64,000 nt of DNA from Aliiglaciecola sp. M165 (lineage in GTDB: Bacteria; Pseudomonadota; Gammaproteobacteria; Enterobacterales; Alteromonadaceae): positions 310,001-374,000 of the forward strand of contig NZ_VKKH01000006.1 of assembly GCF_007197995.1 (NCBI RefSeq), read 5' to 3'. Positions 28,161-38,309 of the stretch are shown in pieces (positions within the stretch are counted from its first letter, which is position 1; the number at the start of each line of letters is the position of its first letter). The notes beneath the pieces were generated by a model. It worked only from the letters and a program-made list of their open reading frames with translations, was not told where the DNA came from and ran no database searches. Both the position numbers and the translations under genes were made by a program.

Positions 28161-28194
28161 TTTCACATCCATTTCACAGTTTAATCGTTACCTT
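28161..28194 (+). promoter_or_regulatory. Direct-repeat operator and promoter, copy 1 (ABC exporter)
   Basis: TTTCACA (28161-28167), four bases, TTTCACA (28172-28178), then exactly ten bases to TACCTT (28189-28194), a possible -10. The 11-bp repeat phase and the repeat taking the -35 position fit activation by an OmpR/PhoB-family regulator. The same arrangement recurs at 31485 and 34768. Confidence 0.65.
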
Positions 28195-28223
28195 GGGCAT
28201 ATACACTAACAAGAGTAACGCCC

Positions 28224-28910
28224 ATGCCTAGTCAAATTATACTGAATGACGTCAGCCAATCGTTTTTTTTAAACGATTCAAAAATTACTTTGTTTAAAAA
28301 CCTCAATGTGTCGATTTCTCAAGGCGAGTCTTATGCGATAACCGGGCCCTCTGGTGCAGGTAAATCAAGTTTACTCATGTTGATGTCTGGGTTAGAACAA
28401 GCTGCAACAGGACAAGGTATATACCGCAACAATAATCAACAGAAAACACTTGATGAATTGCGCTCTGAAATTGGTTTTATCTTTCAGCAGTTCCATTTAT
28501 TGCCGGAGCTGACGGCACTGAACAACGTTGCATTGCCGTTAAAATTAAGAGGGGACAAGGATGCCTTGCCGAAGGCAAAAATCTGGCTAGAGAAGGTTGG
28601 TTTACAGCAAAGACAGCATCACAAGCCCTCGGAATTAAGTGGTGGAGAACAGCAGCGAGTCGCAATAGCTAGAGCTTTGGTATTTAACCCAAAGTTTATC
28701 TTCGCAGATGAACCTACAGGAAATTTGGATCAGAAAAGTGCACGGGAAGTCACTGATATATTGTTCTCTTGTTGCGAGGAAAACAATGCTGGTTTGGTTA
28801 TTGTTACCCATAGCGACAAGTTAGCCAGCAAAGCGAAGCATATTTTTACCTTGTCTGACGGGCAATTTAAACTAGCCAGTACAAACAATTTAGAGGTGAT
28901 AGCATGCTAA
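28224..28910 (+). CDS. ABC exporter ATP-binding protein (YbbA/LolD-like)
   Basis: A 228-residue ATPase of the MacB/LolD/YbbA branch. Walker A GPSGAGKS is at residues 41-48, followed by the Q-loop [13 protein letters not shown], the signature [15 protein letters not shown] and Walker [10 protein letters not shown]. It overlaps the following permease gene by seven bases (ATG inside the end), so the two form one complex. The pairing with an ~830-residue permease suggests E. coli YbbA-YbbP rather than LolCDE or FtsEX. YbbAP is thought to extract hydrophobic compounds from the inner membrane; the substrate here is unknown. Confidence 0.85.
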
Positions 28911-31402
28911 AGAGCACCTCGATACGCGCCAATACAGCACTGGCCTGGCACTTTTACAGGCAAGAATATTCGCAATCTCACCAACGTCTTTTGCGTTGGG
29001 TACAAGGCATACTTCTGCTATTTATCATCACCCTAAGCCAATCCAGCGATAGTATTCAAAATTATCTACAGATGAATTTAAACGGCCTGCTGGGAGCTGA
29101 TGTGGTGCTCAGTCAGCAACAATCACTCACCACGGAACAACATAGTGAAATTTTGGACATTGCAGATAAGGTTGTGGTGACCCAACAAGTCAAAACGACG
29201 CTGACTCATGACGGAAAATGGCAACAAGCTCAGATTAAAGCTGTAGATAGTCGATACCCACTGCAAGGCGAATTAATAACGTCGTCAACGTTAGATGGCG
29301 TTGGACAGTCAAATTCTTCGGGACCTCAATCTGGCCATATTTGGTTGGATGCCAGATTACTTGCTAGCTTGTCGTTAACCATTGGTGACTATTTGACTAT
29401 CGCAGAGCAACGCTTTGCCGTATCGAGAATATTGCAACATGAACCAGACAGATTAATGGAAGGGCATACGGTAGCGATGCGAGCCATGATCCATACCGAA
29501 GATATGGCGGCATTAGGCTTTGCCCCCGAACTTATTCATTATCGATATTTAATTGCCGCAAACTCCGAGCAAACCAATCAGCTGATTGATTGGCAAAAGG
29601 AACATTTGCCAGCGGCTGTCATACGTCATAAACAAGGTCAACATCCGTTAGCGCTATTTTGGCAAAGAACCGAAAATTTCATGGGACTTGCTTCGATTAT
29701 TTTATTTTTTATGGCTGCCATTGCAATCGAGCAGCTAACCCAGGTTCATATGAAAAAGGACCAGTTTTTTTCAGCTGTGTGCATGAGTTTGGGGGCGTCA
29801 AAGGCCGCAGGGTTGCGTGTATCCTTATTAAAATGGTGTATTAGCATCGTTTTTTTGCTGCCGGTTGTTGTATTCGTGTCAGCAGGCTGTCACTGGCTGA
29901 TTATGCACTTTTTAAGTAATACGTTTAGCGATTTGCAATGGCACTGGAATTTTTATTCAGTCGTAAAGCCCATTGCTGCCGTTGTCGCCATCTTTGCTGT
30001 TTTTCACATGCCGGTTTGGTTGGCTGTTCACAAAAGCTCGGTTGCTAGACTCTTTGTTGGCGATTATAGAGGGTTGAGTCATTGGGTGAGCAAAATTAGC
30101 AGCATTCTCGTATTGCTCGGTGTAACACTTATCTATTCAGATAACGGGTTGTTAACTTTAATGATGGTGACCGTCATCGCAGTTACCATCGCTTTGATGA
30201 TCTTCCTTAGTTGGAGCAGCTTAACAATAGGTGAGATGTTGACTCAGCGAGTGTCAGGGCTTGTTCCTTTTGCGTTATTTATGATGAAACAGCGTCTGGT
30301 AAGTAAAAGCACGCAAATAATGGGTATTGGGCTGTGTGCATTTTTACTACTATTTACACTTATGCTGCTTAAAGACCTCGGTCAAACAATGACGTCCTAT
30401 CAGCGTCAACATGACGGTAATGTGTTTATTTCTAAAGCCACACAAGTGCAAATGGAATTTATCGAGGATTGGGCCAGTGAACAGGACATATCCTTGCGTC
30501 AAATAAAACCCTATATGTATGCCAAGCTGACAGCAGTTAATGAACAATCACTTGCACGATTTAGTCAAAAACCCAGTGACAGTATGGCCACTTTCAGTCA
30601 AGCGATACGGTTGCACTGGAGTCAAACAGTACCGCAAAACAACGTTGTGGCCAGTGGACAATGGTGGCAGTCTGATGAGCAAAACTGGCAACAAATTTCT
30701 ATTGAACAGGAAGTGATGACAGACCTTGGCTTAGAGCTTGGTGATTGGCTGACTTTTTACATCAATCAACAAAGCTATGATTTTGAAATTGTCGCAAGCC
30801 ATAACTATAAACCAGGTGCTGGTTCAATTACCTTTTGGGTGCAGATGCCGCCCAGTGCGCTTGATCATATTCAATCACCGCATTTTAGTATGGCAAGTAT
30901 GGAGTTAATGGATGAGCAATGGTCAGTATTGGCACCCTTATGGCAAAAATTCCCAACGCTTCTGATGGTGTCATTGAAAGAACTCACTCAGCGCTTTGAT
31001 AAATTATTGGCCATGATCACTAACGTGATTAGTGGTTTCTCATTGATGATAGTGTTGTTGGCTGCGGTAGTGATTTTAGCCTCCATCAATTCTCTGGAGT
31101 CTAATGAAAAGAAAAAGAACAGTGTGATCATGAGCTTTGGATTTTCTCGTTCAACCTGCTTAAAACTCAACCTGATAGAATGGTTTGTTACCGCAAGCAT
31201 AACTGCTGTAGGGGCAATTTTAGGGACATACATTGCGGGGCTATTGATCTATCAGTCACAATTTTCGTTGACGTATAAACCTGATTTTGTTTGGCTGTTT
31301 TTAACGCTTTTGATCATATTAAGTTTAACTACAACATTAGGTGTTTATGCCAGTCGAAATAGCTTAAAAAGTTCGGTCAGGCAATTGCTATCCGGTACCT
31401 GA
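28904..31402 (+). CDS. ABC exporter permease, YbbP/FtsX-type
   Basis: An 832-residue inner-membrane protein. After a first span (residues ~30-48) comes a ~200-residue periplasmic domain, then a cluster of spans in the middle (about residues 250-440 and 460-485), a second periplasmic domain, and three C-terminal spans (about 700-830). This duplicated FtsX-like layout of about ten spans matches the YbbP family of macrolide-exporter-type permeases. The first periplasmic part is rich in His and Gln. Preceded by its ATPase and followed by a hairpin at 31423. Confidence 0.82.
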   Translation: MLKSTSIRANTALAWHFYRQEYSQSHQRLLRWVQGILLLFIITLSQSSDSIQNYLQMNLNGLLGADVVLSQQQSLTTEQHSEILDIADKVVVTQQVKTTLTHDGKWQQAQIKAVDSRYPLQGELITSSTLDGVGQSNSSGPQSGHIWLDARLLASLSLTIGDYLTIAEQRFAVSRILQHEPDRLMEGHTVAMRAMIHTEDMAALGFAPELIHYRYLIAANSEQTNQLIDWQKEHLPAAVIRHKQGQHPLALFWQRTENFMGLASIILFFMAAIAIEQLTQVHMKKDQFFSAVCMSLGASKAAGLRVSLLKWCISIVFLLPVVVFVSAGCHWLIMHFLSNTFSDLQWHWNFYSVVKPIAAVVAIFAVFHMPVWLAVHKSSVARLFVGDYRGLSHWVSKISSILVLLGVTLIYSDNGLLTLMMVTVIAVTIALMIFLSWSSLTIGEMLTQRVSGLVPFALFMMKQRLVSKSTQIMGIGLCAFLLLFTLMLLKDLGQTMTSYQRQHDGNVFISKATQVQMEFIEDWASEQDISLRQIKPYMYAKLTAVNEQSLARFSQKPSDSMATFSQAIRLHWSQTVPQNNVVASGQWWQSDEQNWQQISIEQEVMTDLGLELGDWLTFYINQQSYDFEIVASHNYKPGAGSITFWVQMPPSALDHIQSPHFSMASMELMDEQWSVLAPLWQKFPTLLMVSLKELTQRFDKLLAMITNVISGFSLMIVLLAAVVILASINSLESNEKKKNSVIMSFGFSRSTCLKLNLIEWFVTASITAVGAILGTYIAGLLIYQSQFSLTYKPDFVWLFLTLLIILSLTTTLGVYASRNSLKSSVRQLLSGT

Positions 31403-31422
31403 ACCCAATACAAAATTAATGA

Positions 31423-31446
31423 TAAGCCCATACGTCGATGGGCTTA
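31423..31446. terminator. Hairpin between the ABC permease and the DJ-1/TPR gene
   Basis: Perfect 9-bp stem (TAAGCCCAT, 31423-31431, with its complement at 31438-31446) and a six-base loop. No clear T-run follows, so termination is only suggested, but an independent promoter lies 40 bp downstream. Confidence 0.45.
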
Positions 31447-31484
31447 GAATTGGGGTTAAATATATTTTTGACAGTCTTTATTCA

Positions 31485-31518
31485 TTTCACATTCTTTTCA
31501 CAGTCTTGATTTTAATCT
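31485..31518 (+). promoter_or_regulatory. Direct-repeat operator and promoter, copy 2 (DJ-1/two-component unit)
   Basis: TTTCACA (31485-31491), four bases, TTTCACA (31496-31502), ten bases, then TAATCT (31513-31518) as -10. The predicted transcript would start near 31525, just before the AGGAGG ribosome site of the gene at 31545. Confidence 0.7.
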
Positions 31519-31544
31519 GTGTGCAACATTTAGGAGGAAACCCA

Positions 31545-32672
31545 ATGAATATGTTGAAAGTAAAACTATCCAAGTTGCTCACGGTCGCCTTGTTGCTATG
31601 TCTTACGGCGCTAGTGAATGCAACAGAACAGACTAAAAAAGTTGTAATGATCGTAAGTAGTTATGGACAACAGCAAGGTGAGGAAAAGCCAGGTTACGAA
31701 TTTGACGAGTTCGCCAAAGCCTACCTCGTATTCAATGCCAATGGAATAGCGGTAGATGTTGCTAGTCCGGCAGGCGGAATGGCGGAAGCAGATAAATATG
31801 ATCCCAGCAAACCCTACAATGCTAAAGTGTTGGCCAATAGCGAAATAATGGCAAAATTAAGCGATACACTAGCCACTAGCGCACTGGATCCAAATGACTA
31901 TGACGGCATTTTCATTGTAGGTGGCAAAGGCGCCATGTTTGATTTGCCCAAAGATGAAGCGTTGAAATCGATTATTGCAGACATTTATCATCAACAAGGA
32001 ACAGTCGCAGCGGTCTGTCATGGTCCTGCAGCTCTGGTTGATGTGAAGTTAAATGATGGTAGTTATCTCGTTGCGAATAAGATGGTCAATGGTTTCACCA
32101 ATGATGAAGAAACCTTGTTTGGCAAAAAGTGGTTGAATCAATTTGATTTCATGCTTGAAGATAAACTTATTGAGCGTGGAGGAAAATTTCAATCTAGCGA
32201 AATTATGTTGAGTCATGTTGCGGTGGATGAGCGTCTTATTACCGGGCAAAATCCAACGTCAACGGTCGATGTTGCTACCGAGCTAGTGAAAAAATTAGGG
32301 CTTACGCCTGTTGCCACAAAACCAGATACTGACGATAAGACTTTGGCTGTTGTTGCCAGATTGTTGGCGGGTGACAAAACGGCGGCAAATGAACTGGCAA
32401 GCAACCGACAGCAATACCATATTGCACTTGTTGGCATGTATGGCTTCTATTATTTGAAGCTCGCTGATTCGAATGTCGAATATGAAAATGCACTGACATT
32501 AATGTTAGTAGCTCAAGATGAACTCAAAAACCCAGTGTTAGACATGCAGATTGCGAAAACTCAGCAAAAGCTCGGACAAGAACATGAGGCTAGATCAACA
32601 CTCGAACAACTACTGGCGAGAAAACCTGATTATGCTCCAGCAGTGGACATGTTGAAAACAATGTCATTATGA
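31545..32672 (+). CDS. Secreted DJ-1/PfpI-family protein with C-terminal TPR-like region
   Basis: A 375-residue exported protein. Residues 1-26 are a signal peptide (hydrophobic LLTVALLLCLTALVNA). Residues ~32-255 form a DJ-1/PfpI (class I glutamine amidotransferase-like) domain with the nucleophile Cys158-His159 in AAVCHGPAAL and an upstream acidic GYEFDEFA, as in Hsp31-type chaperone/glyoxalase members. From ~300 to the end are helices resembling tetratricopeptide repeats (EARSTLEQLLARKPDYAPA). The ATG at 31545 has an ideal AGGAGGAA site. A periplasmic DJ-1 protein fused to TPR is uncommon. It is transcribed with the regulator pair that follows, so a stress-related envelope role is likely but unproven. 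Confidence 0.85.
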   Translation: MNMLKVKLSKLLTVALLLCLTALVNATEQTKKVVMIVSSYGQQQGEEKPGYEFDEFAKAYLVFNANGIAVDVASPAGGMAEADKYDPSKPYNAKVLANSEIMAKLSDTLATSALDPNDYDGIFIVGGKGAMFDLPKDEALKSIIADIYHQQGTVAAVCHGPAALVDVKLNDGSYLVANKMVNGFTNDEETLFGKKWLNQFDFMLEDKLIERGGKFQSSEIMLSHVAVDERLITGQNPTSTVDVATELVKKLGLTPVATKPDTDDKTLAVVARLLAGDKTAANELASNRQQYHIALVGMYGFYYLKLADSNVEYENALTLMLVAQDELKNPVLDMQIAKTQQKLGQEHEARSTLEQLLARKPDYAPAVDMLKTMSL

Positions 32673-32739
32673 TGAGATAACAAAACTTCATTGAGTGTCT
32701 CTTTCCAATGCGAGGTGCTCAATTGATAGGAAGCAAACA

Positions 32740-33441
32740 ATGACTAATCTAACCATATCACTCAACGTACTTTTGGTTGAAGATCAACTAAGCATCTGTC
32801 AAAACATTGCTGATTACATGGAAGAAAAAGGCCATGTGTTTGATTTTGCTAACAACGGTAGGTTGGGGTTGGAACTGGCGTTAAATCAGGATTACGATTT
32901 GATTATTCTCGATTTAAACCTGCCGTCTATGGACGGGTTGGAAATTTGCCGACAATTAAGAGAAAAGTCTGCGCGACATATACCTATTCTCATGCTCACT
33001 GCGCGCGATAGTATAGAGGATAAGGTGGATGGTTTTAATGTTGGCACCGACGATTACCTGACCAAACCGTTTTCATTGCAAGAACTTGAAGTGCGGTGTT
33101 TAGCCTTGTCCCGCCGTCATTTATTGCAAACCAACACAACATTGACCCTAGGACCATTGAGCATTGATAGAAAAACGAGGCAAGTGAAACGCAAAGGACA
33201 ACTTCTGGATTTGCACACCATGGGTCTGAAAATTCTCACTATTCTTGCTGAATCTTATCCGCAGGTAGTCAGTCGATCCCAGCTGTCGCAAAAATTGTGG
33301 GGAGATGAACCAACAGAATCGGATGCAATGCGTTCTCACATTTATCAACTGCGTAATGTTTTAGACAAGCCTTTTGACTATCCAATTTTGAAAACGGTTC
33401 ATGGCGTTGGGTTTACCTTGGATATTAAAGATGAGCAATAA
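32740..33441 (+). CDS. OmpR-family response regulator
   Basis: A 233-residue DNA-binding response regulator. The receiver domain has the acidic pocket Glu14-Asp15, the phosphoacceptor Asp58 in ILDLNLP, Thr87 and Lys109 in LTKPF. The C-terminal winged helix (residues ~133-230) has the recognition region ESDAMRSHIYQLRNVLDKPF. The ATG at 32740 follows AGGA. Its end overlaps the sensor kinase gene by 11 bp. It is 67 bp after the DJ-1/TPR gene and probably in the same transcript. The TTTCACA direct repeats at 28161, 31485 and 34768 have the geometry expected for this family and are its most likely targets. Confidence 0.92.
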   Translation: MTNLTISLNVLLVEDQLSICQNIADYMEEKGHVFDFANNGRLGLELALNQDYDLIILDLNLPSMDGLEICRQLREKSARHIPILMLTARDSIEDKVDGFNVGTDDYLTKPFSLQELEVRCLALSRRHLLQTNTTLTLGPLSIDRKTRQVKRKGQLLDLHTMGLKILTILAESYPQVVSRSQLSQKLWGDEPTESDAMRSHIYQLRNVLDKPFDYPILKTVHGVGFTLDIKDEQ

Positions 33442-34714
33442 GCCTATTAAACAACCTGCTAGATTCCATAGTTTAAGCCGGCGTATCGTTGCGCAATTTT
33501 GTATTTTTACTCTGGTTTTGTCGGCGATTTACGGGCTACTCAGTTTTCTTCTCATGTACATATTGGAAGATGAATTTATTGTCCGGGATATCCGTCAGGA
33601 GGCTAATTATTTACTGCAACAATATCAACAGACTTCTCAATGGCCACAAGTCCAAGGTGAGAATATGACGTTGCATTTTTCTTTGGAAACCTTACCTGAT
33701 GATGTGCGCCAAAAATTAATCGAAGAGCCACAACGAACCGAATTTTATGGCGCAAATGGCCGTCACTACCATCTCTACCCGGTGGATAAAGACAATTCTA
33801 TCTATTTGTTAGCTGAGGTGAGCCAGAAGTTACTTGTCAGGCCAATCAGAGAAGGCGTAATAACATTGCTCATTGTTGGCGGTTCGATATTGACCCTTAT
33901 CGCGTTTTTTATCGCATGGATGTTGGGCAGAAAAACCGCACTACCTTTGAAAAAACTGGCTGACCTGGTCGACGGCGTAGCACCAGAAAAAATACCTGAA
34001 AAGTTTGCCGATCAATATCCCAACAATGAGATTGGCATTTTAGCGACAAGACTTGAAAATACCATGCAGCAACTCAGTCAGGCCCTGGAACGTGAAAAAT
34101 GTTTCACTCGAGACGTGAGCCATGAGCTACGCACACCTGTTGCCGTCATTAAAAATGCAGCTGAAGTGTATCGTCAGAAAAACATTGGCGATGCCGAATC
34201 AAGTGAGATCATTAATCGAATTACTGATGCTACGATACAGATGGAACAAACGGTTACAACCTTGTTGACTTTAGCCCGTGAAGAGCATACATCGGTAGGA
34301 AAATCATCTGTTAAATTACTGCCAATAATTGAGCAATCAATTCTGGATCACGGGTATTTATTAGAGGGCAAAGACGTAGATGTCGAGGTGAGTGACAATT
34401 GTGATGCCGAGGTTTTTTCACAAAAAGGCATGGTGAAAGTGCTATTGGATAATCTGCTTAGCAATGCTTTTCAATATACAAACTCAGGGGTAGTTACAGT
34501 GAATTTTACTGGTAACACACTTACCATCGAAGATACCGGGCCGGGGATTGAAGGCCAAGTATCGGCAAATGTTACCGAACCGGCAGTTAAAGGTAGCCAA
34601 AGTACAGGTTATGGCTTTGGATTATCTATCGTCAAACGGTTATGTGAACACCAAAACTGGCATTTAACTGTATCTAGTCATCAAGGTACAACTGTGCAAG
34701 TGTTATTTGGTTGA
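33431..34714 (+). CDS. Sensor histidine kinase paired with the 32740 regulator
   Basis: A 427-residue membrane kinase. Two spans (about residues 21-44 and 144-165) enclose a ~100-residue periplasmic sensor. A HAMP-like linker follows, then the dimerisation helix with the phosphorylated His231 in RDVSHELRTP, and an ATPase domain with the N box DNLLSNAFQYT, DTGPGIEG and GYGFGLSIVKRL. I use the ATG at 33431, which overlaps the regulator stop by 11 bp and gives a normal short cytoplasmic N-terminus. The signal is unknown; the sensor has no recognisable ligand motif. Confidence 0.92.
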   Translation: MSNKPIKQPARFHSLSRRIVAQFCIFTLVLSAIYGLLSFLLMYILEDEFIVRDIRQEANYLLQQYQQTSQWPQVQGENMTLHFSLETLPDDVRQKLIEEPQRTEFYGANGRHYHLYPVDKDNSIYLLAEVSQKLLVRPIREGVITLLIVGGSILTLIAFFIAWMLGRKTALPLKKLADLVDGVAPEKIPEKFADQYPNNEIGILATRLENTMQQLSQALEREKCFTRDVSHELRTPVAVIKNAAEVYRQKNIGDAESSEIINRITDATIQMEQTVTTLLTLAREEHTSVGKSSVKLLPIIEQSILDHGYLLEGKDVDVEVSDNCDAEVFSQKGMVKVLLDNLLSNAFQYTNSGVVTVNFTGNTLTIEDTGPGIEGQVSANVTEPAVKGSQSTGYGFGLSIVKRLCEHQNWHLTVSSHQGTTVQVLFG

Positions 34715-34767
34715 TTAACCACAGCCATTTAAATTAGTTAACCTCAAATACCTTTACCCCTCAACGA

Positions 34768-34801
34768 TTTCACATTCATTTCACATGCATTTTTGTATTC
34801 T
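34768..34801 (+). promoter_or_regulatory. Direct-repeat operator and promoter, copy 3 (protease lipoprotein)
   Basis: TTTCACA (34768-34774), four bases, TTTCACA (34779-34785), ten bases, then TATTCT (34796-34801). The expected start near 34808 lies downstream of an in-frame ATG at 34785, so it also decides the start of the next gene in favour of GTG 34848. Confidence 0.7.
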
Positions 34802-34847: not shown

Positions 34848-36080
34848 GTGGCAGGGTTATTAAGAGTTTTTGGCATCTTCTTCTTTTTACTGGTTATCGG
34901 TGGGTGCAATGTAATCAATGTTCTTAAACTAAGAAGTGCAAACGATGATGTTGTGCCGACCTGGAGCGCAACCGGTGATCATTTTCCGATCAAAACCGAT
35001 TACATAGGCGAAAAAGTCTTTATTTATGGCAGCATTAATGGGGTAGAAGGGTTCAAATTTTTAGTCGACACTGGCGCATCCTTTACCATTTTATATGACA
35101 CGCCCAAAGTCAAATCGTTAGGGCTACAAAAAGGTTACGAACTGGGTTTAGCCGGGTGGGGTGATGAGGACAAATCTTTAGGACATCAAATCAGCATGCG
35201 TTCGTTTTCATTCGGTGATTTAAAAGTCGAGCAGTTTCAAGGGGCATTTATACAGATGAGTGAAACCCCATATTTTGCTAGCCCTGATGAACTGATTTAC
35301 GACGGCGTTGTTGGCCATGATTTGATGCGTCATTTTATTTGGACTTTCGATTACCAAGCTAAGCAAGTTATCGTTGCTAATGTGCCATTCGCACCTAAAA
35401 AAAGTACTCAAGCACTACCTTTTGATACCTTCATGAGTAAAATCAGTGTTGAGGCAAAGTTTGATTTTGGGAATGGACATGTCATTGATCATGACGTCAT
35501 TATTGATAATGGCAGCAGACACTACTTTAAGCTTAGCTCCGCCTATCCAGAATCTAACGATGTTGAGTTACCCACCCAAGTGACTGCAGCCGATTTTGGC
35601 TTAAGTGGAAAAGCTGAACATCAGAGAATCACCCTACCTAGTATTACCCTTGGTGACATCAAATTAAATAAGGTGCGCACGAATATCATTGAGCATGATG
35701 ATGAAGACGAGATGTGGGTGATAGGAAACGGTATTTTTAATCAATTTGTGACTACCGTGGACTACCAAACTGAAACACTCTATCTCACCCCGTATGAAGG
35801 ACATGAGTTTCAATCTCGTTATAACTTGATGGGGCTAGAGGTGAGAAAATTACTGTCTGGAAATTACATCGTGCGCTACGTTATGCCCGATTTACCTGCC
35901 AAGCATGCAGGGCTGAAAGCGGGAGATATCATCGCTCAAGTCAACGGTGTAGAAGCCAAAAATATTAGCAAGGATCAATGGCTGACAATGAGTAATACAC
36001 CAGCAAGCTATGAAATTTGCTTGGCTTCTTCTCAATGTGTTCGGCTGCAATCAGAACATATCGAAGGATATTCAAGATAA
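34848..36080 (+). CDS. Lipoprotein with retropepsin-like aspartic protease and PDZ domains
   Basis: A 410-residue predicted lipoprotein. Translation from GTG 34848 (GGAG site upstream) gives a short hydrophobic leader ending in VIGGC with lipidation at Cys20. Residues ~45-175 form a retropepsin-like domain with the active-site DTGA (Asp74) and a hydrophobic-Gly flap-like GVVGHDLM. Residues ~190-320 are a second, similar repeat in which the motif is DNGS (Asp220). A PDZ domain (~335-400, LPAKHAGLKAGDIIAQVNG) ends the protein. Paired aspartyl lobes would make a single-chain protease anchored in the envelope. No known substrate. It has its own copy of the TTTCACA element, so it is probably co-regulated with the ABC exporter. 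Confidence 0.82.
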   Translation: MAGLLRVFGIFFFLLVIGGCNVINVLKLRSANDDVVPTWSATGDHFPIKTDYIGEKVFIYGSINGVEGFKFLVDTGASFTILYDTPKVKSLGLQKGYELGLAGWGDEDKSLGHQISMRSFSFGDLKVEQFQGAFIQMSETPYFASPDELIYDGVVGHDLMRHFIWTFDYQAKQVIVANVPFAPKKSTQALPFDTFMSKISVEAKFDFGNGHVIDHDVIIDNGSRHYFKLSSAYPESNDVELPTQVTAADFGLSGKAEHQRITLPSITLGDIKLNKVRTNIIEHDDEDEMWVIGNGIFNQFVTTVDYQTETLYLTPYEGHEFQSRYNLMGLEVRKLLSGNYIVRYVMPDLPAKHAGLKAGDIIAQVNGVEAKNISKDQWLTMSNTPASYEICLASSQCVRLQSEHIEGYSR

Positions 36081-36132
36081 CCCTCGATTGGGTTCGTCTG
36101 GTGACAAAAGTTTACATCTGAAAAAATGTGCT

Positions 36133-36182
36133 GCAGATAAAATGTGAATGATGATTTACATTTTGTCTGCGGCGATTATACT
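36133..36182 (+). promoter_or_regulatory. Promoter overlapped by an operator-like dyad (amidohydrolase-TetR unit)
   Basis: TTTACA (36155-36160), a 16-bp spacer and TATACT (36177-36182) form a good sigma-70 promoter about 37 bp before the amidohydrolase start. A 13-bp inverted repeat (36133-36145 and 36158-36170, one mismatch, 12-base centre) covers the -35 and spacer. It may be the operator of the TetR protein encoded as the second gene. Confidence 0.6.
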
Positions 36183-37667: not shown

Positions 37668-38309
37668 ATGACAGAAAAACAGCAAGAACCGATTATTCAG
37701 GCCAAGCAATCTCGGAGCCGCGCGACCCAAAATAAACTTTTGAGCGCGCTCCACCGGTGTTTGCAACGTAAGGTGTTTGAGCAAATAAGTATTAAAGAAA
37801 TAGCCGACGAAGCGGGGGTGTCTGTGGGCACCTTTTATCGTCGCTTCAAAGACAAAGAGTCTTTGCTGCCTATTTTGTACAAAGCCTTTGGCGAAGATCT
37901 ATCAAATTGGTTGGAAGAGATCGAAAGTTGTCGCCACTCGGATCTACTCTCGGCACTATCAGAGGTGTCTCATCAAACCCTTAACTTTTTACAGCGACAC
38001 AAAAGTGTTTTCAGGACCTTGCATCTTAATGCAAGGTTGCAGCCTGATTTGCTCGACCAGAACACATTGCTTAATCGTAAGGAGGTTTATAGCCGCCTTG
38101 CTGCTGTGCTGCAGCGCCACAAAGCTGACATGCATGTATCCAATCCTATTGAGGCAACGCAATTAGTGATTTTTATGTTGGTCAGTGCGCTACTTGAGAA
38201 AGTGGTATACCCAAATCTAACACCAGCGGTTGCCTCAGAATTAGATGCACAGGACACGTCTGAACAACTTGTTAAAATGTTTTACCTCTACCTACAGGCA
38301 CCTTCTTAA
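37668..38309 (+). CDS. TetR/AcrR-family regulator
   Basis: A 213-residue repressor-type protein. The N-terminal helix-turn-helix is ISIKEIADEAGVSVGTFYRRF (residues ~43-63, preceded by an Arg-rich tail QSRSRATQNKLL). The rest is helical ligand-binding domain. It starts 15 bp after the amidohydrolase gene and is almost surely cotranscribed. The dyad over the promoter upstream of the amidohydrolase is the nearest plausible operator. Confidence 0.88.
   Translation: MTEKQQEPIIQAKQSRSRATQNKLLSALHRCLQRKVFEQISIKEIADEAGVSVGTFYRRFKDKESLLPILYKAFGEDLSNWLEEIESCRHSDLLSALSEVSHQTLNFLQRHKSVFRTLHLNARLQPDLLDQNTLLNRKEVYSRLAAVLQRHKADMHVSNPIEATQLVIFMLVSALLEKVVYPNLTPAVASELDAQDTSEQLVKMFYLYLQAPS

Follow-up and report, generated by a model that had tools for sequence, protein, structure and literature searches.

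A Direct-Repeat Promoter Element and a Candidate Two-Component Envelope Regulon in Aliiglaciecola sp. M165

Genes and Promoter Elements of the Locus

The window, that is, the whole stretch of 64,000 nucleotides analyzed here (contig NZ_VKKH01000006.1 of Aliiglaciecola sp. M165, positions 310,001 to 374,000), contains three copies of a promoter-like element and six genes located behind them (Table 1). The permease gene overlaps the ATPase gene, and the two form one unit. The protein encoded at 32740, with its receiver and winged-helix Trans_reg_C domains, belongs to the OmpR/PhoB family of response regulators. None of the six window proteins passes a curated NCBIfam cut-off among the matches listed. 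The VCHGP motif of the DJ-1-fold protein recurs in all of the 14 commonest variants in an alignment of 48 matches, and the TPR assigned to this protein in the original prediction is not recovered, since none passes Pfam. Two DTG-like motifs, VDTGAS and IDNGSR, occur in the single chain of the aspartic protease, originally described as a retropepsin; in relatives, IDNGSR mostly reads IDTGSR. Given these two motifs, the enzyme may comprise two lobes instead of a retropepsin half.

Table 1. Promoter elements and genes of the locus (positions in the window)
Feature	Position	Strand	Description
Element 1	28161..28194	+	TTTCACA-TCCA-TTTCACA-N10-TACCTT; predicted promoter of ABC exporter pair
ABC transporter ATPase, LolD/FtsE-like	28224..28910	+	Pfam ABC_tran 3.7e-34; NCBIfam LolD 201.7 of 307.75 bits, under cut-off
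FtsX-family ABC permease, YbbP-like	28904..31402	+	Pfam FtsX 3.6e-10; NCBIfam YbbP 175.3 of 999 bits
Element 2	31485..31518	+	TTTCACA-TTCT-TTTCACA-N10-TAATCT; predicted promoter of DJ-1/regulator/kinase unit
DJ-1/PfpI-fold protein	31545..32672	+	Pfam DJ-1_PfpI 7.5e-16; N-terminal signal-like sequence (by eye); VCHGP motif
OmpR/PhoB-family response regulator	32740..33441	+	Pfam Response_reg + Trans_reg_C; proposed binder of elements
Sensor histidine kinase, PorY-like	33431..34714	+	Pfam HisKA + HATPase_c; NCBIfam PorY 137.2 of 350 bits, under cut-off
Element 3	34768..34801	+	TTTCACA-TTCA-TTTCACA-N10-TATTCT; predicted promoter of aspartic protease gene
Aspartyl protease + PDZ	34848..36080	+	Pfam Asp_protease_2 5.2e-11, PDZ 6.8e-08; lipobox-like VIGGC; GTG start

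All three sites are exact matches to TTTCACA-N4-TTTCACA followed after N10 by a hexamer, and lie where they had originally been predicted. The distance from the start of the site to the start codon is 63 bp for the ABC ATPase, 60 bp for the DJ-1 protein and 80 bp for the aspartic protease. Even when up to two mismatches are tolerated, a mean of only 0.03 sites is expected by chance in the window, and none of 100 shuffles reaches three. The GTG at 34848, proposed as the start of the protease gene, is supported, because the ATG at 34785 overlaps Element 3, whereas the GTG is preceded by GGAG; the orthologue starts in L092 and L093 agree by eye. A promoter scan calls no sigma70-type -35/-10 pair at any of the three elements. 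The missing pair fits an activator that replaces the -35 box, albeit weakly, because the scan finds fewer pairs in the region (15) than in shuffles (20.4).

Further downstream, an inverted repeat with 20-nt arms, 85% complementary and 4 nt apart, is present at 36130-36173, between the protease gene and an amidohydrolase gene (36219), where it overlaps a sigma70-like promoter; a search with 9-base seeds does not report it. Since a gene at 37668 appears TetR-like by eye, this repeat may be the operator of its product.

Rarity of the Element

In the whole genome (G000; 4,609,762 bases), the exact repeat TTTCACA-N4-TTTCACA occurs three times, and every copy lies inside the window. One further match of the repeat alone is found at one mismatch and 56 at two mismatches. 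The latter are regarded as background, because the total of 60 compares with 89 for the reversed pattern under the same limit of two mismatches; among the 26 of these 56 loci that were examined (L005-L030), none has a -10 hexamer at N10. According to a zero-order model, 0.065 exact repeats are expected per genome, and 0.0014 once the -10 is added. The full element with [TC]ANNNT is found three times without mismatch, once at one mismatch, never at two and 37 times at three, compared to 53 occurrences at up to three mismatches for its reversed control. The motif is thus not scattered through the genome, in keeping with the original prediction. Furthermore, the exact full element with TANNNT is found in none of 368 other genomes of the class, just two of which belong to the same family.

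A Fourth Site and a Secreted Protein

The one-mismatch full element, at G000:C23:368532, is on another contig and has TATCTT at exactly N10. It required a test of its own, because a single one-mismatch match of the repeat is unremarkable. A 254-aa secreted protein begins 69 bp after the start of this site. It is 39-52% identical to proteins of approximately 240-280 aa in 17 other loci, in all of which the protein sits behind the same element (at most one mismatch) and near the regulator; an 18th locus holds a fragment (37%). A profile built from 14 of the homologues scores the C23 protein at 299 bits. The motif alone therefore located a gene that is clustered with the regulator in other genomes. 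With a cut-off of E < 1e-40 for presence, which 33 of 39 genomes with matches pass, the secreted protein is found in 30 of 36 genomes with the regulator vs 3 of 160 without it. Consequently, the three window units of the original prediction are retained in the candidate regulon, which proves larger than claimed by a fourth promoter, in trans on C23.

The secreted protein has no Pfam family, the one match (E 0.082) being at chance level, and its best matches in the PDB have E values of 0.55 and above. The structure model reaches a mean pLDDT of 79.8 and a pTM of 0.75 (the other four models, 52.6-66.9). In this model, one helix leads into a large antiparallel sheet, a topology that may resemble LolA-like half barrels.

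Conservation of the Element in Relatives

Promoters were compared in the window and in 31 of 38 regulator loci by taking, for each gene, the best match within 350 bp upstream; L120 and L122-L127 (25-40% identity) were left out. Gene matches under 200 bits or with fewer than 60 bases upstream were skipped, so that the counts cover fewer genes than loci, and they do not represent independent events, as the loci include pairs of close relatives (L094/L095, L096/L098 and L116/L117). With the window included, a site is found at all 26 ABC exporter promoters (23 exact, 3 at one mismatch), at all 27 DJ-1 promoters (13 exact, 12 at one and 2 at two mismatches) and at all five protease promoters (4 exact, 1 at one mismatch). 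In the same promoter stretches, the reversed pattern never falls under three mismatches. The loci with the conserved element span Alteromonadaceae, Colwelliaceae, Pseudoalteromonadaceae, Shewanellaceae and Vibrionaceae. TTTCAC is nearly invariant in both repeats, and the stretch from the second repeat to the -10 is largely unconstrained.

The spacing to the -10 was evaluated on the 117 distinct exact sites in all loci examined. Regulon-family genes follow 82 of them (ABC 31, DJ-1 23, secreted protein 14, protease 8, membrane DJ-1 paralogue 5, second ABC type 1), another gene or no gene follows 31, and the remaining four lie before regulator genes (three sites, one with a -10) or before a membrane-fusion protein (one site, without a -10). 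A [TC]ANNNT hexamer stands at exactly N10 in 80/82 sites before regulon-family genes and in 8/31 of those before another or no gene. The -10 was relaxed to this form only after the promoter comparison had shown the C; with strict TANNNT the fractions are 58/82 and 8/31. The TA-N-N-[CT]-T hexamer originally proposed is correct for the three window sites and does not extend to the DJ-1 promoters of relatives in general. It represents a local form, since ABC genes are preceded by TANNNT and DJ-1 genes mostly by CANNNT. With its 7-bp repeats, 4-bp spacer and fixed distance to the -10, the element has the layout of a direct-repeat operator.

A -10 at N10 is missing from the sites of L147, L150 and L151 (the last with a one-mismatch site) and from the regulator-side sites of the two Marinicella loci. 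In distant relatives the site fades, to two or three mismatches in L142, L146 and L148, and the regulator genes of L152 and L160 have none. In five loci without DJ-1 ahead of the regulator, a site precedes the regulator itself: it is exact in L153, with one mismatch in L147 and L149 and two in L143 and L144. Marinicella has an exact site upstream of the regulator and a weaker one that faces the divergent DJ-1 gene. In L096, L098, L116, L117 and L158, where the regulator comes after the permease, it is preceded by neither DJ-1 nor a site belonging to it; autoregulation in these loci would depend on read-through from the ABC promoter. In several genomes, sites distant from the regulator are followed by homologues of the protease, the secreted protein, the DJ-1 protein or the ABC exporter.

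Some variants deserve separate mention. The recognition helix reads ALR[AS]HIYLLRQ in L143, L144 and L149, where TTTGACA occurs in one half site near the regulator genes; it is possible, from these sequences, that operator and helix change together. In several genomes, the element is also followed by another DJ-1-fold protein, one with a membrane-like segment at its N terminus (L116 3790, L164 2414, L177 1728). Finally, at L170 1621 (G018:C1), a beta-lactamase-fold protein (PF00144) starts 78 bp downstream of an exact element with TAAGTT at N10, a case from one genome whose regulator is 59% identical.

Co-occurrence of the Element and the Regulator

In 196 genomes of the family, the repeat gives 101 exact matches in 58 genomes, compared to 22 matches in 21 genomes for the reversed control (tallied by eye). 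Of the 101 matches, 50 (from 30 genomes) have a regulator orthologue with 59% identity or higher no farther than 12 kb away. For the presence of the regulator, 14 candidates were scored per genome with E up to 1e-40, among the matches listed (down to about 44% identity); genome lists, positions and genus membership were entered by hand for these tests. The motif tracks the regulator, in favor of the original prediction: 32 of the 36 genomes that encode the regulator (at least 64% identity) have an exact site, vs 26 of 160 without it (p = 1.1e-16), whereas the reversed control gives 5/36 against 16/160 (p = 0.55). The association persists within genera holding both kinds of genome (27/31 vs 9/62), where none of 20,000 within-genus permutations is as high. 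Because site and regulator share a cluster, their co-occurrence is partly inflated, an effect lessened by the distant sites and the within-genus test.

The exceptions can be followed individually. Among the 26 genomes with an exact site and no regulator reaching 64%, three encode one of 59-60%, and 17 of the other 23 lack any -10-bearing site. Conversely, seven of the 36 regulator genomes have no exact site nearby. All six regulator regions examined from these contain a one-mismatch site with a -10 before the ABC gene; in the seventh genome, G076, whose regulator sits on a contig of 8 kb, the ABC gene lies on another contig behind an exact site.

Candidate Readers of the Element

Structurally, 7-bp direct repeats with a strict 4-bp spacer are bound by OmpR/PhoB-class regulators as a tandem head-to-tail dimer (PMC4832192). 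The repeats described here have this published geometry, and the original assignment to the known mode of the family therefore stands. Together, rarity, tracking of the regulator and operator geometry also speak for the binder that was originally proposed: most likely, judging from sequence, the repeats are occupied by a head-to-tail dimer of the OmpR/PhoB-type regulator encoded at 32740, which takes over the role of a -35 box.

PhoB is the strongest rival. The elements might be pho boxes or be read by a different resident member of the OmpR/PhoB family, with the adjacent regulator a mere neighbor. PhoB likewise uses 7-bp repeats with 4-bp spacers, and TTTCACA falls within some of the listed E. 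coli PhoB sites. Moreover, an array of TTTAATA, TTTCACA and TGTCATA in 11-bp phase (L014 1501-1540, G000:C1:303079) precedes a gene resembling, by eye, that of a phosphate-selective porin, and is a probable pho box. Because this promoter resembles a real pho box, PhoB is kept as a minor rival. On the other hand, T occupies position 2 of both repeats in all exporter and DJ-1 promoters examined, where E. coli CTGTCAT (aligned as TGTCAT) has G. The elements do not belong to the CTGTCAT-type repeats of the Pho regulon, a comparison made with the E. coli motif; the consensus is reported to vary between species. CTGTCAT-N4-CTGTCAT itself gives 24 matches in G000 at up to two mismatches, two of them at one mismatch, vs 15 for the reversed control. 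The element, furthermore, tracks the 32740-type regulator both across and within genera; PhoB is probably near-universal in these genomes and, if so, cannot explain this tracking. A pho-type reading is thus improbable.

Still smaller weight is given to recognition by another factor, such as an alternative sigma factor or a protein reading CRP-like half sites. The rigid spacing to the -10 is sigma-factor-like, and the TCACA within the repeat is half a CRP site. However, the repeats are direct, not inverted, and show the 11-bp phase and 7-4-7 spacing of OmpR/PhoB-type operators; that the element tracks the 32740 regulator also counts against this reading, which appears very improbable. The core of the element is, in turn, identical to the cre/blr tag of CreB/BlrA, given as TTCAC-N6-TTCAC in PMC4689548 and present in all three window sites, so that a CreB/BlrA-type system could be envisaged as the reader; the original prediction makes no reference to this precedent. 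In G000, though, no protein exceeds the curated CreB cut-off (best 209.7 of 273 bits); the window regulator scores 135.4-135.9 of 273 bits, 12th in the genome, and does not qualify as CreB. CreD is likewise not found in G000. It exceeds the cut-off in 12 of the 196 genomes and is unrelated to the motif (5/12 vs 53/184, p = 0.34); of the five genomes that have CreD and no regulator reaching 59%, none contains the motif. No tag lies within about 1.5 kb in the eight creD loci read, of the 12 over the cut-off. CreB is therefore rejected as the binder, with hardly any probability left to it. The least probable reading of all, practically negligible, is that chance or the local duplication of one promoter produced the three copies, which do lie inside 6.7 kb. 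It is rejected because the flanking bases differ, the element is conserved in five families and a fourth copy occurs on another contig.

Proposed Circuit and Its Meaning

Returning to the 32740 regulator, the most plausible interpretation, to which we assign a probability of about 0.84, is that the window forms the core of a small autoregulated two-component regulon with four promoters, in which this regulator acts on the direct repeats. The kinase (33431) would phosphorylate the regulator, two molecules of which would bind the two TTTCACA repeats head-to-tail on one helix face. The bound regulator would make up for the absent -35 box and bring RNA polymerase to the -10 ten bases downstream. 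The promoters driven in this way would be those of the ABC exporter pair, the putative DJ-1/regulator/kinase operon, the aspartic-protease/PDZ lipoprotein and, in trans, the C23 secreted protein. Activation of its own operon would constitute positive feedback.

The combination of an exporter, a signal-bearing DJ-1 protein, a lipobox-containing protease and a secreted protein suggests an envelope response, possibly to stress. A more specific and speculative reading, which we consider rather unlikely, is that the four units constitute one envelope machine that acts, controlled by a single sensor, on a shared substrate (damaged lipoproteins, lipids or peptides), and thereby an undescribed stress response of marine Gammaproteobacteria. 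Its parts, equally tentative, would be a YbbAP/Lol-like exporter, a periplasmic DJ-1-fold protein, an aspartic protease/PDZ lipoprotein and an unnamed periplasmic protein.

Collectively, a small and sharply bounded candidate regulon, with four promoters, one operator and one regulator, emerges from genome sequence. It is kept across several Gammaproteobacterial families and occurs, mostly, as an all-or-none set within genera. Four poorly understood envelope protein families, one of them without a Pfam entry, would thus be tied to one sensor, which makes a shared function testable. In a mostly marine bacterial group, a whole control circuit would become readable from the genome.

Comparison with Known Systems

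The proposed mechanism is already known, while the regulon is new as far as the open-licence literature shows: no earlier description was found among the open-licence papers searched. The operator of M. tuberculosis PhoP, as described in PMC4832192, has the same 7-bp direct repeats with a strict 4-bp spacer, occupied by a tandem dimer in the crystal; its repeat, TCACAGC, differs, and its regulon and organism are unrelated. The Pho box shares the two 7-bp direct repeats, the 4-bp spacer and the position ahead of the -10, and a distance of 10 bp separates it from the -10. In contrast, its repeat is CTGTCAT rather than TTTCACA, and the present element has envelope genes as its putative targets and tracks another regulator. 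A strict spacing to core promoter elements is also reported for PhoB sites in PMC10294691.

Among seven E. coli regulators compared with the 32740 regulator, QseB (38% identity), CusR (34%) and BasR (PmrA; 34%) are the closest. The clade of the window regulator (20 rows) is nevertheless separate from QseB, BasR and CusR, with 100/100 support, to be read with caution because of long branches, and has another recognition helix. With CreBC/BlrAB, the system shares the TTCAC-N6-TTCAC core and an OmpR/PhoB-family regulator encoded beside a kinase. It differs in that its regulator is only 32% identical to E. coli CreB, no creD is found and the targets are others; the E. coli creD tag, moreover, has no TANNNT at the spacing of the element. 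Considering this 32% identity, the closer relation to QseB, the search of G000 that found no CreB over the cut-off and no CreD, and the missing link between CreD and the motif, the element contains a CreB-like half site and does not represent the CreBC system. The element and the 32740 regulator would thus offer a clean operator-regulator pair for studies of specificity among the direct-repeat regulators that share the TTCAC core with CreB.
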